Source: Bacillota bacterium (GTDB lineage Bacteria; Bacillota; Clostridia; Oscillospirales; QAMX01). From it: a DNA stretch of 5,503 nt. This document shows, piece after piece, positions 1 through 5,041 of the stretch. The notes under the pieces are model-generated. The model was not told the origin of the DNA and did not search any database. It worked only from the letters and a program-made list of their open reading frames with translations. How positions within the stretch are numbered: the first letter of the stretch is position 1; every line of letters begins with the position of its first letter. Both the position numbers and the translations under genes were made by a program. The stretch lies in NCBI GenBank assembly GCA_029778935.1, contig JAKPBM010000043.1, positions 1 to 5,503 of the forward strand, given 5' to 3'.

Positions 1-1802
1 ATGTACCCAACACCCACCTTCTCGATGATGACATTGTAGTATATGTCTTCCACCTTGGCGGTAACGGTCAAATCGCTGTTTATGACCTTACCCGGCTCCA
101 GCTTCTCCCCGCTTTCCATATACCAGCCGAGGAAACGCTGAACGCCTTCCGGCACCGGATAGTTGGGAATCTCACTTTTAGCAATGGCGGCGCCGGGTTT
201 GACATACACCGTCTGAAAAACCGCTCCCTCCGGGTTCTGATAGGTAATCTTCTTGAGTTTCTCGACCGTAAACTTGTTACTGGTCACCAGCAGACCGCCG
301 CAATAGGCCGTCAGCGTATACGTGCCCTCCGGTGTGTCTGGCGAAAGACCGACATCACTAAACGTAGCATACCCGTTGGAAGTCTTGACAGAGGTCGTAC
401 CCGTCAGATACTGGGTGGCAATCAATTCTCCGTTCTCGTCGGTCAGAAAAAGAGATACGGTGTCGACGCTGCTGCCGTCGCTCAGGCGAACGACCGGCTG
501 CGTGTCCAGCTTCATGCCGGCGCAAGCGGTTTGGCCGGCGTTCGGCTGCGTTGTGAAGGACAGGGAGGGGAGCGCGGACCTCCACTCCAGGTAGCCTTTG
601 CCTGTCAGCGATTTTGAATAGGGATCTGTTGTCGTAAAATATGTGAAAATCCGGCCCTTTTCGTCCGCGGCGACGGCGCCCATTTCCACAATTTCATCAT
701 GTGTGGTTTCCTTGCCGTTTACCAACCGGTATTTGTTCTTAATCGGCACCCAATACCGGCCGCATTCATCCTGTTTGGTGGTTTTCACACCCGGTTTGGA
801 AACCCAAATAAGGTCGTTTTCCGTATCTGTTACGTAGAAAATGCAGTTGTCGGGATAATCCCTGAACAAATTATTATAATTGCTGCGTGAAACGTAAAAA
901 TCATTGGGCGAGTTTGTGGGCGCTTTTGCGACTTTTTGTATGTCTCTTACTTCCTTTACATAGGTTTCTTCAATGCCGCCGTAATAAGCAAAAAACAACC
1001 GGACATACCAAATATTGCCCGCAGAGTCCAGCATGTAAACATACTCTGTATCTTCATAGTTTGTGTTTACATTCGGGTGCTGATAAATAGCGATAATAGA
1101 CCCGGAAATTTGCGGAATCGTCAGCTTGTCAAACCACTTGTTGTTGGTCTTGCTGTAGTAGTAAATTTCATTGCGGTCGGCATAATAGATGTTTCCCCAA
1201 CGGTCGGCCCACATGGCGGTCGGATACATCGGCAAAGGGTTGTTGCTGTTTATAATCGTCCACGTGTCATTCGACGCAAGATAACGCCAAATTTGCGTAA
1301 CTTTTTGATTTTGCGTGTTATAGCCGGGCCTTACAATCGTTATGACATCACAGTTGTATGACCCCCAACTATATCCGCCGGCTAAATGGGGCAACCCGTA
1401 TAAATTATATTGGGGATAACTCTCTGAAATATTGGTTACTTCATAGGAAGTCAAATCCGAGGAGGTAAAAGTCAGCCTTTTAACATAGGAAGTTTCGAAA
1501 AATCCATTCGAGGTAAAGTAAACGGTCGGCATATAATTACTCGAATCATATTGACCAAGATGTTTCGGGTATTCGGTCGTGACGACCAGATCGTCGCCAT
1601 AGTAAAACGTACTATTTTCCATATCTTGGCTATTGAAGTGATTGTACGAATTCCATCTACCGTACAACGGGTTTTTAACGGGATCCGGATACGACACGGT
1701 CGATCCCGTTTCATCCGCGCCGTCCGACGGGATGGCAATCAGGCCTATCACCATAATACAGGCCAAAACCAAACACAGCATCCGCTTGGACAGGGATTTC
1801 AT
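1..1802 (-). CDS. Secreted propeller/Ig-like/InlB-repeat protein (3' end outside window)
   Basis: The reading frame is open from ATG at 1802 to the left window edge (600 codons, no stop), so the C-terminus is missing. Residues 1-28 form a Sec signal peptide: K3/K6/R7, then a hydrophobic stretch from about 8 to 24, and likely cleavage after SDGA. Residues about 60-400 contain blade-like motifs: ADRWGNIYYADR at 199-210, LDSAGNIWYV at 258-267, FYVTDTENDLIWV at 322-334 and AADEKGRIFTYF at 378-389. These suggest a beta-propeller, with the fold inferred. Residues about 414-513 look like a bacterial Ig-like domain (FTTQP, QPVVRLSDG, PEGTYTLTAYCGG). Residues about 518-585 match the Listeria-Bacteroides/InlB B repeat (FLGWY at 557-561, then SDLTVTAKVE). 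AAAGGAG at 1811-1817 lies 8 nt before the start. An ATG at 1808 is followed at once by TGA, so 1802 is the real start. The gene is probably co-transcribed with the small gene ending at 1863. A surface or secreted adhesin-like role is inferred; no catalytic motif is visible. A lipoprotein is unlikely because C15 lacks a good lipobox. Confidence 0.9.
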   Translation of the reverse strand, partial: MKSLSKRMLCLVLACIMVIGLIAIPSDGADETGSTVSYPDPVKNPLYGRWNSYNHFNSQDMENSTFYYGDDLVVTTEYPKHLGQYDSSNYMPTVYFTSNGFFETSYVKRLTFTSSDLTSYEVTNISESYPQYNLYGLPHLAGGYSWGSYNCDVITIVRPGYNTQNQKVTQIWRYLASNDTWTIINSNNPLPMYPTAMWADRWGNIYYADRNEIYYYSKTNNKWFDKLTIPQISGSIIAIYQHPNVNTNYEDTEYVYMLDSAGNIWYVRLFFAYYGGIEETYVKEVRDIQKVAKAPTNSPNDFYVSRSNYNNLFRDYPDNCIFYVTDTENDLIWVSKPGVKTTKQDECGRYWVPIKNKYRLVNGKETTHDEIVEMGAVAADEKGRIFTYFTTTDPYSKSLTGKGYLEWRSALPSLSFTTQPNAGQTACAGMKLDTQPVVRLSDGSSVDTVSLFLTDENGELIATQYLTGTTSVKTSNGYATFSDVGLSPDTPEGTYTLTAYCGGLLVTSNKFTVEKLKKITYQNPEGAVFQTVYVKPGAAIAKSEIPNYPVPEGVQRFLGWYMESGEKLEPGKVINSDLTVTAKVEDIYYNVIIEKVGVGY

Positions 1803-1862: not shown

Positions 1863-2213
1863 TTAGATATCTTTATTTTCTCTTGCCGGTCGAAGCCGAA
1901 ACGGCGTCAGCATGCTGTAAACAACAGCGAGATACCCGCCGCTTTGAAGCCGCGCGTATCCGATAACCCATTCAAAGGGCCTTATCAGGCTGCCCCGCGG
2001 CAGAATCGGGATCTTCGTTCCGTTTTCCAACAGCAGCGCGTCGCCATGGGCCGGCGGCCGGGCGGCGCCGCCGATTTCGCCGATTACATTCACTATTTCG
2101 CCGCTATGTAACTTCTTTAATTCTTTTACTGAGTAATACCAGATGCTTTGCCTTCCGGATAGGCCGCAATAGCGCCTCGCGCACCCATCGGGGGGAGCCA
2201 GATGGTAGTTCAG
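1863..2213 (-). CDS. Small protein of unknown function, probable CTG start
   Basis: I do not recognise this protein family. The frame is open from just after a TGA at 2220-2222 to TAA at 1863-1865. From the CTG at 2211-2213 it encodes 116 residues, beginning (M)NYHLAPPDG. It contains the well-formed stretches IWYYSVKELKKLHSGEIVNV and GDALLLENGTKIPILP, and ends in a basic tail, RLRPARENKDI. No ATG exists in frame. The only GTG (2091-2093) would remove the first 40 residues and has no ribosome binding site. The CTG instead lies 6 nt after AAGGAGGTGA (2220-2229), a perfect ten-base anti-SD match, itself just downstream of a TATAAT promoter. There is no signal peptide or membrane helix, so it is likely cytoplasmic. 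It is the first gene behind the candidate regulator operator and precedes the secreted protein by 60 nt with no terminator. Alternatives are a start codon lost by mutation or sequencing error, or a frameshift at the C6 run 2190-2195 that would join it to an overlapping ATG frame. Confidence 0.55.
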   Translation of the reverse strand: MNYHLAPPDGCARRYCGLSGRQSIWYYSVKELKKLHSGEIVNVIGEIGGAARPPAHGDALLLENGTKIPILPRGSLIRPFEWVIGYARLQSGGYLAVVYSMLTPFRLRPARENKDI

Positions 2214-2239: not shown

Positions 2240-2269
2240 ATTATAAAGCAATATTGGCCATATGCACAA
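2240..2269 (-). promoter_or_regulatory. Sigma-A type promoter for the small gene and secreted protein
   Basis: The minus strand has a perfect TATAAT (2245-2240) preceded, across an 18-bp spacer, by TTGTGC (2269-2264), which matches the -35 consensus TTGACA at only three positions. Transcription should begin near 2231-2233, just before the Shine-Dalgarno. A good -10 with a poor -35 and a long spacer is typical of promoters that need an activator. The direct repeat upstream ends on the first base of the -35. Confidence 0.65.
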
Positions 2270-2301
2270 AAATGGCGAAAATAGCGCTTAAAATGGCGAA
2301 A
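2269..2301 (-). promoter_or_regulatory. 12-bp direct repeat, 21-bp period: candidate LytTR regulator operator
   Basis: TTTCGCCATTTT occurs twice without mismatch on the minus strand, at 2301-2290 and 2280-2269, separated by 9 bp. The 21-bp start-to-start spacing puts both copies on the same face of the helix. LytTR regulators such as AgrA and YpdB are known to bind paired direct repeats with about this period, placed just upstream of the -35 of the target promoter. Here the proximal copy abuts a weak -35, and a LytTR regulator is encoded 2 kb upstream on the same strand. The core sequence itself does not match the general LytTR consensus well, so the assignment rests on geometry and context. 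Confidence 0.6.
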
Positions 2302-2306
2302 TTGGT

Positions 2307-2351
2307 ATAAAAAAGTCCCCTGCCGTTACATTTGGCAGGGGACTTTTTTAT
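2307..2351 (-). terminator. Strong rho-independent terminator after the kinase gene
   Basis: An 18-bp perfect inverted repeat (2307-2324 with 2334-2351) encloses a 9-nt loop. Its GC-rich core, GTCCCCTGCC/GGCAGGGGAC, is flanked by A6 on one side and T6 on the other, so it has terminator form on both strands. The minus-strand reading ends the regulator-kinase transcript. The restored kinase stop codon (TAA, 2348-2350) lies in the foot of the stem. Only about 5 bp separate it from the direct repeat of the next promoter, which insulates the two transcription units. Confidence 0.9.
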
Positions 2352-4315
2352 TGTGTGACGCCCTCCGGGGGCATCGATGTAACGCCGGCATCGCTTTCTG
2401 CCGGGAACGCCGCCATCAGCGTAAAGGTGTTCCCGTCGTACTTGGTTTTCAGATAGCCGTCGTAAGATTCGACCACCTTTTTTAATGTTGTTCAGCCCGA
2501 AGCCGTGGCCGCTTCCCTCTTTGGAAGTCGCCAGGGTGCTGCCGCTTTTGCTCAGCTGCCCGTCGTAGGAATTCACGACCTTGATCAGAAACCGGCCGCC
2601 AAAGAGCCTTGCTTCCGCCGCCACAAAGGGTTTTTGCTCCGGCGGCACCTTCCGGCAGGCCTCCATGGCGTTTTCCAGACTGTTGCTTAAGACGATGCAG
2701 AGGTCGCTGTCCATAACGGTGAGGGTTTTGGGAATGGCGCAGACGCAGTGGAAGGGGATGTTTTTTCTTTCAGTCGCAAAGCGTAATACCCCAGCACCGA
2801 GTTCACTACCGCGTTATCGCAGTAGACGGGCAAAGGCTCCATCTCCGCCAGTTCGGCATACTCGGCGACAAAGCGCCGCAGCTCGTCAAACCGCCCTTCC
2901 TCCGCAAGCAATGCCAGCGTAGCGGCAAAATGGCGCACATCGTGGCGCAGCGCCCGCACTTCGTTCATCTGGCTTGAGAGGGCGTCGTAATACTCCGTCT
3001 GCATGGCAATCTGGCGCCGGGCCATCTCCAGCCTGGCGGCAGACTGCTCATACTCCCTGTGCACCTTCAGCATGCGCAGGATAAACGCGACGCTAAGCAG
3101 CATCATGTACACGGCGATGCAGAGGGGGAACACCAGCGAAACGTCCGGATAAATGTTCCCGTTGGCGTAGTAAGAGTCCACCGCCATGCCCGCCACCGCC
3201 GCCGCCGTCCCCCAGAACACCAGCATCGCATAGGGCTGTAAGTTTGGCTTTCCGAAGTAGATTTTGCAGAAGGTGTACACTTCCAGAAGGAAGCTCGCGG
3301 CGGGAATCAGAATGTCCAGGTAGCGGTTATAAAAATCGTACGGGGTCAGAAAGTGCACAAGGAAAATGCCGGCGTAGTAGCAGACAAGAAAGATCTTTTC
3401 CTTTTGGGAAAAATGAACGCCGAACTGCTCCTGATACAAAAAGAGCATCAAAAACTTCAGTGCAAAGGAGACTAAAAACAACAGCTCATTGGTGGCCTCA
3501 AAGGACAAGCCGCCGAAAAAGCGCTTCTGCCAGAAGGTGAAAAACTCGGTCAGTAGCATAAGCCTCAGGTGGACGCAGACAACAAGGGCCACCAGCCAGG
3601 CCGAACGAAGCCCCTTCCGGTACGCCACAAAATACACCATCAGCAGAACAAAGGAGGAAAACAGGATGTTGCCAAAGAGGGCAAACCTTCCGGCGCTTTT
3701 TTCCGTGTTCTCCTGGATTGCCTTGTCGTAGGACATCATCACGGGGGCCTTGTACAGCCCCGAAAAGCGGGTGGTGGCGGTTTCAATGACCAGCTCATGC
3801 TCCCCTTCCGAAAGGGTGATGGGGTAGACGGTGGACAGGGGGGTGGTAAAGACCGCCTTCGGGCTTTTGGAGACCACGCCGCTTTGGGAAACCAGCCGGC
3901 CGTCGATATACGCCCGGTAGGCGCTGCCGAAATCCGGAATCCAGACGGTGACCGGCACGCTGATCTCCGGCGTCTGCAGGCGGACGGCGTAGCTTGCGTA
4001 CCCGTCGGCGGGAAGAAGCTTTCCCTCGAGCTTGGTATCCGACCAGTACCCCGGCACGTTGACATAGGCGTCCGGCCCGTTCGGCGCGGCCCGGTCGTTG
4101 ATTACAAACTGGTTCCAGTAAAACGCCCACCGGCCGTCCAGCACGGCGCGTTCGCCCCGATACTCTTTGCACAGTTCCAGTACGCCGTTTTGAGCGGCAG
4201 GCTCACCGGTGATCTGGTGATAGAACAGGGTGTATAAAACGGGAAGATGCGAAAACAACACCGTCAGAACGAGCCCCAGCAGTAGCTGCGCACGAACGGA
4301 AACGCTCTTCTGCAT
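2348..4315 (-). CDS. GHKL sensor histidine kinase with 7TMR-DISM-like sensor; two compensating frameshifts
   Basis: This is the membrane sensor partner of the adjacent LytTR regulator. From ATG 4315 the literal frame gives 542 residues (stop at 2687). With one A added at 2761-2766 and one removed at 2478-2483 it becomes a complete 655-residue kinase ending at TAA 2348-2350. Domains in order: a membrane helix at about 10-32; an extracellular jelly-roll/galactose-binding-like region at 40-200 (LDGRWAFYW, VNVPGYW, YRAYIDGRLVSQSG); seven helices at about 211-413; a helical linker at 416-450; the phospho-acceptor box ALRHDVRHF with H458; and a GHKL ATPase with N-box NSLENAMEA (N545, N549) and G-box GSGHGFGLNN (601-610). 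The layout is that of 7TMR-DISM receptors, which often sense carbohydrates or other small ligands; the ligand here is unknown. The gene starts 15 nt after the regulator's stop codon, so the two share an operon. As written, the ATPase is not in frame with the sensor: sequencing error, a recent pseudogene or recoding are all possible. Confidence 0.88.
2478..2483 (-). other. Frame break 2 in the kinase (A6 run, one base too many)
   Basis: On the minus strand the codons AAC AAC ATT lead into A6 and GGTGG. Reading five As instead of six gives NNIKKVVESYDGYL, the expected continuation of a GHKL G-box region, and the frame runs to TAA at 2348-2350. Reading six As leads into unrelated basic sequence. 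Confidence 0.85.
2761..2766 (-). other. Frame break 1 in the kinase (A6 run, one base too few)
   Basis: On the minus strand CTG AAA GAA runs into A6 and CATCCCC. Reading seven As gives LKEKNIPFHC, the expected segment before the GHKL N-box. Reading six gives a proline/serine-rich tail and a stop at 2687. The restored frame meets the N-box MDSDLCIVLSNSLENA without any gap. Confidence 0.85.
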
Positions 4316-4330
4316 ACTCTTACCCCAATT

Positions 4331-5041
4331 CTACATGCGGGAAAACAGGCTTTCGTAATATTTGGCCTTGGCTTCTTTTATGTACTTACGGGAAATGGCA
4401 ATAGTGGTCTGGCCGATGCGGAAATAATTGTCGCCCGCTTCCGTCACATGGGAGAGATTTACGATAAAACTCTGGTGACAGCGGAAATAGCTTGGGTCAT
4501 AGACGTTTTTGAAGATTTCTTCCATCTTGCCGTAGCATTTGAGCACAGTCCCGTCCACCAGATGGAACAGAATCATCTTGTTCTGGCTTTCGGCGTACAA
4601 AATGTTCCGGCAGTCGATGCGGTGGGTAACACCTTTGTACTGAATGCAGATCTGGTAGCCTCTTTCCTTGTGAAGCTCTTCCAAAGCCCTGTCCAGCACG
4701 GCGTTGAGCCTTTCTTTCTGCACGGGCTTTACCAGGTAGTTAAAGGCAAAAACCTCGTACGCCTGAGAATAAAAGTCGGTACTGGAGGTAAGAAACACGA
4801 TTTTTAAGTCTTTCATCACCGTTCGGACGCGCCGGGCCGTCTCTATACCGTCCATTTCGGGCATGCAGACGTCTAAAAACAGCAAGTCCGCGTCGAAAAC
4901 CCCGTCTTCCACATCCGTGACAAGGGTTTTGCCGTCGGCGTACGGGTGGATTTTTAAGCCGGGGTCGTATTGTTGCAGCGCTTCCGAAAGCTGCTTTATA
5001 GCCAGGGGGTCATCGTCGCAAAGGGCGATTCGAACCGGCAT
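4331..5041 (-). CDS. LytTR-family response regulator (AgrA/LytR type)
   Basis: This 236-residue cytoplasmic transcription regulator is normal in length for the family. The receiver domain (about 3-122) has acidic residues D9-D11, phospho-acceptor D57 in LFLDVCMPEMDG, T85 in FLTSS and K105 in YLVKP, all in the expected places, so it should be phosphorylatable. Residues about 130-234 form a LytTR DNA-binding domain, with the diagnostic YFRCHQSFIVNL (185-196; R187, H189, S191, N195) and a later SRKYIKEAK segment. LytTR proteins bind paired direct repeats upstream of weak promoters. ATG 5041 is preceded by GGGAGGGGA with 5 nt spacing. It is the first gene of a two-gene operon with the kinase. Likely targets are the repeat at 2269-2301 and perhaps its own upstream region (5077-5102). 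I see no damage to this gene. Confidence 0.96.
   Translation of the reverse strand: MPVRIALCDDDPLAIKQLSEALQQYDPGLKIHPYADGKTLVTDVEDGVFDADLLFLDVCMPEMDGIETARRVRTVMKDLKIVFLTSSTDFYSQAYEVFAFNYLVKPVQKERLNAVLDRALEELHKERGYQICIQYKGVTHRIDCRNILYAESQNKMILFHLVDGTVLKCYGKMEEIFKNVYDPSYFRCHQSFIVNLSHVTEAGDNYFRIGQTTIAISRKYIKEAKAKYYESLFSRM

Follow-up and report, generated by a model that had tools for sequence, protein, structure and literature searches.

A conserved direct repeat as candidate activator site of a LytTR two-component system with a small uncharacterised protein among its likely outputs in Bacillota

The DNA recognised by LytTR regulators is generally quoted as a 9-mer with the consensus [TA][AC][CA]GTTN[AG][TG]. 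According to the accessible part of a published account, LytTR sites are direct repeats of 9-11 nt separated by spacers of 11-13 nt, and it is this structure and not a consensus sequence that they have in common (PMC4847170). The LRS systems HdrRM and BrsRM of Streptococcus mutans are described, in the available portion of the source, with a 9-mer, 12 bp and a second 9-mer just upstream of the promoter (PMC6193735). For AgrA of Staphylococcus aureus the part of the literature at hand reports paired direct repeats upstream at agr P2/P3, where the promoter spacers of 18 and 20 bp are suboptimal (PMC4227749).

The window analysed here, by which we mean the whole stretch of 5,503 nucleotides, carries on its minus strand a response regulator, a sensor kinase, a small gene and the gene of a secreted protein (Table 1). 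Between the kinase and the small gene lies a pair of direct repeats that a first-pass annotation of the same DNA had proposed as the output site of the local LytTR system. The comparative data presented below lead us to regard this pair as a highly probable candidate binding site of the adjoining LytTR response regulator, positioned such that it could activate the promoter that follows.

Table 1. Features of the window, in positions from its first letter.
Feature	Position	Strand	Basis or remark
Secreted protein, 600 aa, runs off window end	3..1802	-	N-terminal signal-like segment, by eye
Small gene, 116 aa, homologous to a family of ~110 aa	1863..2213	-	Sequence homology
-10 box TATAAT	2240..2245	-	37 bp from copy 2 start, counted from ATTTTCG
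Poor -35-like TTGTGC	2264..2269	-	Not conserved in relatives
Repeat copy 2, conserved unit CTATTTTCGCCATT	2271..2284	-	Alignments, matrix; first-pass 12-mer at 2269-2280
Repeat copy 1, conserved unit CCAATTTCGCC	2295..2305	-	Site alignments, leave-out matrix; first-pass 12-mer at 2290-2301
Long hairpin and T run after kinase gene	2302..2352	-	-30 kcal/mol; 0/200 shuffles equally stable
GHKL-type sensor kinase	2348..4315	-	HATPase_c_5 6e-13 on the 2241-2714 frame
Response regulator, receiver and LytTR domains	4331..5041	-	Pfam Response_reg 3e-19, LytTR 3e-14

Exact copies of TTTCGCCATTTT are present on the minus strand at 2301-2290 and 2280-2269, copy 2 lying 21 bp past copy 1, as the first-pass annotation had described. 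Its account of the promoter was equally accurate, since copy 2 ends on the T (2269) that opens the poor -35 element TTGTGC (2269-2264), from which an 18-bp spacer (2263-2246) leads to a perfect TATAAT (2245-2240). From 2305 to 2240 the minus-strand sequence is CCAATTTCGCCATTTT AAGCG CTATTTTCGCCATTTT TGTGCATATGGCCAATATTGCTT TATAAT. A scan of 1780-2480 for sigma-70-type promoters found no promoter there. The hairpin behind the kinase gene is likely a terminator that would separate the kinase from the repeat promoter; its loop of 9 exceeds the loop limit of 8 set in the terminator scan, which did not report it.

The longest exact repeat in the window at offsets of 20-24 is 12 bp, a length that none of 1000 dinucleotide shuffles reached, while a 12-bp exact repeat at any offset between 15 and 60 turned up in 16 of 1000. 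The genome scan for pairs of 21-bp period, which had been suggested as a check together with the original observation, found the window pair to be unique at up to three mismatches in the 2.0-Mb genome as scanned (465 contigs, 86% complete). A pattern made from the conserved core gave two more matches in this genome, both at three mismatches and both lacking a TATAAT-like box at the appropriate spacing. Inside the small gene, the plus strand of the window (2074-2106) contains a second TTTCGCC pair with 21-bp spacing that derives from repeated Gly-Glu-Ile codons and was judged coincidental; the reverse complement of the core, GGCGAAATT, is itself readable as Gly-Glu-Ile.

The motif was built on 19 collected sites, and its conserved unit consists of CCAATTTCGsC in copy 1 (2305-2295) and yCAATTTCGCCATT in copy 2 (2284-2271). 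Each 12-mer is thus preceded by four bases that form part of the unit, and most relatives do not share the TTTT tail of copy 1. The period is 21 bp in 14 of the 19 sites and 22 bp in the remaining five. The sequence of one locus (L003) stops before the -10 box and was therefore omitted from the -10 counts and from the matrix described below. In the other 18 sites the distance from copy 2 to the -10 box is 37 bp (12 sites), 38 bp (5) or 36 bp (1), and the hexamer is TATAAT in 12, TATACT in three, TATAGT in two and TACAAT in one. These boxes were picked as the best hexamer across seven positions, and the ranking of sites stands without them. Information content amounts to 1.1-1.7 bits over AATTTCG in both copies and to about 1 bit in a T tract directly before the -10 box, whereas the upstream flank and the -35 region mostly hold 0-0.5 bit and at most 0.8. 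In the register CCAATTTCG, the two copies in the window agree with the LytTR consensus quoted above at 6/9 and 5/9 positions, and agreement over the 18 sites ranges from 4 to 7 of 9.

Orthologs of the regulator with flanking sequence were gathered from 18 genomes (G000, G059-G068, G451, G466, G475, G525, G1270, G1215 and G938), and the repeat occurs at 16 of these loci, the window included (G000, L002-L009, L103, L111-L113 and L150-L152). A small-gene homolog was identified by tblastn at 14 of the 18. The first-pass annotation had named comparison of this intergenic region among relatives as a check, and its reading would have been refuted by relatives that keep regulator and output gene but not the repeat. 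The reading stands by this measure, as all 14 loci with both the regulator and a small-gene homolog keep the repeat. The repeat is found without a small-gene homolog in L003, where the contig ends just past it, and in L005, which has a degraded small gene. It is missing from L010 and L011, where the frames of regulator and kinase are both broken and there is no homolog of the small gene. The arrangement is variable: L007, at which no kinase was seen, has a site in front of the small gene and another in front of a surface gene, and at L150 the site separates the small gene from a divergently oriented regulator and kinase.

The search for the site covered L002-L012 among 60 regulator-matched loci from named genomes. 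L012, which carries an N-terminal fragment of the regulator on a second contig of the L009 genome, was not counted, and L013-L061 were left out at 24-42% identity, nearly all of them matching over part of the regulator. Regulator orthologs were found in at least 2 of 391 sampled genomes of one class, a lower bound because at most seven candidates were scored per genome, and in 5 of 82 of another, with already known genomes included in these counts. Among 59 near relatives, the own genome included, a close regulator match was present in the window's genome only, the other match being 37% identical, and the system therefore looks accessory in its own family. When 393 genomes were searched with the small protein, five matched: the seed genome (G059), three strong matches (E 2.4e-26 or better) and a weak one. 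All three strong genomes carry the regulator, the kinase and the site, and by this indirect route they entered the set of 18. In the weak one (G1013, E 6e-8) the best regulator scores 158 bits, which is not ortholog strength, and its 13-kb locus has no site. This diverged homolog (L153 7000-7755) has a C-terminal extension and is located near surface-protein-like genes. The corresponding search in the order of G062 gave 0/393 in a sample without any genome known to match the query.

The ability of the motif to identify its own sites was assessed with a leave-out matrix that was trained, for each of the 18 sites, on the others minus close kin and used to scan both strands of the locus, limited to 10 kb around the site in the longest loci. 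The true site was the top match in 17 of 18 scans, and the same 17 were found without the -10 term; the exception was the second site of L007, which was beaten by the first site of that locus. With a matrix trained without the window, the window site scored 41.3 bits, compared to 40 shuffles with a mean of 7.5 and a maximum of 14.2. Even the lowest-scoring true sites, L150 at 24.8 and L103 at 28.5, exceeded their shuffle maxima of 18.9 and 19.4. Scores on the negative loci L010, L011 and L153 (9.1, 10.4 and 8.8) were inside the shuffle ranges, as was the score of 1.4 in the 2.7 kb around the window's own regulator (L062).

The site pattern was also used blindly, at up to one mismatch, on 391 genomes. 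It matched 33 times in 26 genomes, compared to nine matches of the reversed pattern, and 32 of the 33 were examined. Exact TATAAT at 37 or 38 bp accompanied four of them, all in two genomes, G113 and G303. Three of them precede, respectively, a small-gene homolog, a 1241-aa SLH protein and a secreted protein with a signal-like start; the fourth, in G113, is followed by no clear gene but by open stretches that overlap larger ORFs of the other strand. Used blind, the site pattern combined with a -10 box at fixed distance brought up genes of the output type in two genomes, and on this basis sequence searches can map the regulon. At one mismatch the pattern did not recover the sites of G065 and G451, the two sampled genomes known to carry the regulator. 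In the remaining 28 of the 32 no TATAAT stands at the proper distance; the first 30 loci include 27 of these, every one of them within an ORF of at least 80 aa. Such coding matches illustrate how a repeat of this kind could arise by chance or from codons and be functionless; that the window pair is of this sort is nevertheless an explanation with next to no probability, since none of the 1000 shuffles gives the pair and it is conserved at 16 of 18 loci in phase with the -10 box.

The two genomes found blind also bear on what may bind the site. Regulator and site co-occur in 16 genomes, but by profile no regulator ortholog was found in G113 or G303, the best scores being 112 and 101 bits compared to at least 344 for the intact orthologs scored, and more distant regulators were matched in both. 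G113 has three site copies, one of them without a -10 box and one followed by the small gene. It also has a kinase ortholog, 57% identical to that of L002, with surface-protein-like frames in the expected place of the regulator (L206 5751-9381), an arrangement that may point to rearrangement or misassembly. One may argue from these genomes that the repeats are bound by the small protein, or by a regulator encoded elsewhere, and that the LytTR regulator is a mere neighbour. We consider this improbable, as the period and position of the repeats are those described for LytTR sites in the accessible sources, and no match to a Pfam or NCBIfam family was obtained for the small protein. Furthermore, G062 retains regulator and site although its small gene is degraded at the locus and no copy turned up among the 11 of 31 candidates scored in the genome, and G1013 has its diverged small protein with neither an ortholog-strength regulator nor a site at the locus.

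The LytTR regulator itself is encoded on the same strand just upstream, as had been noted in the first-pass annotation. The regulators of site-bearing loci are 46-55% identical to that of the window, and several relatives are closer to one another. An RCHQS segment of the LytTR domain is kept in 16 of 17 sequences compared, with RSHQS in L152; the AgrA counterpart, FFRCHNS, includes DNA-contacting residues according to the available part of PMC4227749. Among the best 25 of 83 NCBIfam families the regulator passed no cut-off, and its score of 34 bits against the AgrA family, for which the cut-off is 400, does not make it AgrA-type. The regulator frame is intact, and the kinase frame is broken twice near A runs (window 2460-2500 and 2750-2770), by either assembly error or decay; with its kinase broken, the window's own system may not work.

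A site for autoregulation was sought with the same core sequence in the 400 bp upstream of the regulator (293 bp in L003) at 15 loci; L009, in which the regulator is cut by the contig end, L010 and L011 were left out. At 14 of the 15 every pair in this stretch had at least 5 of 18 mismatches, and at the fifteenth, L150, the regulator shares the divergent intergenic region with the site. The regulator operon thus lacks a like site at 14 of 15 loci, so the system looks like a dedicated output switch and not like the self-amplifying loop of LRS.

The direction of control is suggested by the promoter. Over the 18 sites the -10 box is conserved and a -35 element is not, and a good -10 without a conserved -35 fits activation. 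A bound regulator could in principle repress the small gene instead, since copy 2 abuts the -35 position where a protein could block polymerase, and some LytTR proteins are repressors, as described for BlpS in the portion of PMC8545106 available. This reading is very unlikely, given that a conserved -10 without a conserved -35 suits activation. Activation through a LytTR-type site, as first proposed, is supported by conservation at 14 of 14 loci, phasing with the -10 box, the little-conserved surroundings and sites in front of unlinked surface genes. The kinase would sense a signal and phosphorylate the regulator, two LytTR domains of which could then occupy the repeat copies, which face the same side of the helix at a distance of two turns, beside the missing -35. 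The bound regulator would recruit RNA polymerase and switch on the small gene, together with the surface protein behind it where one is present. The terminator-like hairpin after the kinase would render the output promoter independent of read-through.

The first-pass annotation had assigned both the small gene and the secreted protein to the dedicated output. The small gene is the commonest putative output, and the secreted protein is variable and sometimes absent. In L006 (Acididesulfobacillus), L112 (the first D. orientis locus) and L151 the small gene lacks a large surface gene immediately behind it, and for this reason the small gene appears to be the more constant output. SLH domains were found in surface proteins behind or near the sites of L002, L009, L152, L113, L100, L207 and L206, and CWB2 domains in those of L111 and L144, so that all nine proteins scanned as surface proteins of sites have one or the other. 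An M13 peptidase in L204 is not behind its site. The gene of an unlinked SLH protein in Lutispora is preceded by a further site. D. orientis has a second cassette (L144, 5683 of the reverse complement), located about 10 kb from the first and consisting of a hairpin-like repeat, site, small gene and surface protein, the latter with 1545 aa, a GDSL lipase and CWB2. The secreted protein of the window, which is cut by the window end, had no Pfam match at 0.01.

At the homologous start, where relatives have ATG or TTG, the small gene of the window has no ATG, GTG or TTG. Its apparent start is CTG (2213-2211), after a strong AGGAGG (2228-2223) and 9 nt past GGAGG. The family has 160 homologs at E 0.001 or better, and none of the 120 listed has a Pfam domain. 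The window's small protein matched no family in Pfam and NCBIfam, a profile search against solved structures yielded no hit with E below 0.25, and its AlphaFold model (mean pLDDT 53.5, pTM 0.29) was too poor for a fold search. The idea that the small gene encodes a LytTR-only protein like BlpS was dismissed, as no Pfam or NCBIfam match supports it. A 477-aa open frame in L103 (7944-9377) starts with the small-protein domain and is perhaps a fusion.

With these observations a likely DNA code, promoter architecture and output genes can be assigned to a LytTR two-component system on the basis of conservation across regulators that are only about half identical to that of the window. They also bring to notice a family of small proteins, at least 160 in number, with no Pfam annotation among those listed, whose genes are often next to those of S-layer-type surface proteins. 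The interest of the locus resides in this combination of an unusually well supported candidate site and an uncharacterised small protein. One may speculate, although we would hold the idea to be somewhat doubtful, that these loci represent an undescribed mobile surface-display module of Bacillota in which a LytTR two-component system, using a CCAATTTCGsC code of its own, drives a new-family protein of about 110 aa and an exchangeable SLH or CWB2 surface protein, the small protein being a dedicated helper or regulator of the latter. Among the literature matches listed, no paper dealt with the motif or with the locus tags of D. acidiphilus and D. orientis.

Compared to described systems, the sites agree with the published LytTR architecture in repeat and spacer, with a period of 21 or 22 bp in all 19, and in their position just upstream of or at the promoter -35, with 36-38 bp to the -10 box in 18 of 18. 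One of the closest likenesses is to LRS, in which 9-bp direct repeats with a 12-bp spacer, and hence the same period of 21, are likewise directly upstream of the promoter. The distance from the start of copy 2 to the -10 box is 42 bp (9+10+6+17) in several LRS examples in the accessible part of PMC6193735, whereas here it is 38-40 bp counted from CCAATTTCG. The LRS repeats described there are ACCxCTTAx-like and thus differ in sequence from the repeat here, and they control the operon of their own regulator, while no like pair is found upstream of the regulator at 14 of 15 loci in our survey. The LRS regulator is moreover paired with an inhibitory membrane protein, in contrast to the receiver domain and the kinase with GHKL ATPase domain in this system.

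The YpdB site of E. coli, a pair of GGCATTTCAT with the same period of 21, also belongs to a LytTR response regulator with a LytS-type kinase, as described in the available portion of PMC4847170. Its repeat differs in sequence from the one reported here. The YpdB target yhjX is a transporter gene. The kinase that partners AgrA is GHKL-type, a class shared with the kinase of the window. AgrA further resembles the present system as a LytTR regulator with paired direct repeats upstream of promoters, as far as the accessible part of PMC4227749 describes them, but it controls its own quorum-sensing operon. In comparison with the VirR boxes of Clostridium perfringens, the targets here are instead SLH or CWB2 surface proteins and a small conserved protein. 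The period, spacer and position of the repeats are accordingly those known for LytTR sites, and what is new is this putative regulon and its repeat sequence. Since LytTR sites are known to vary in sequence, we regard it as a new regulon of a known kind.
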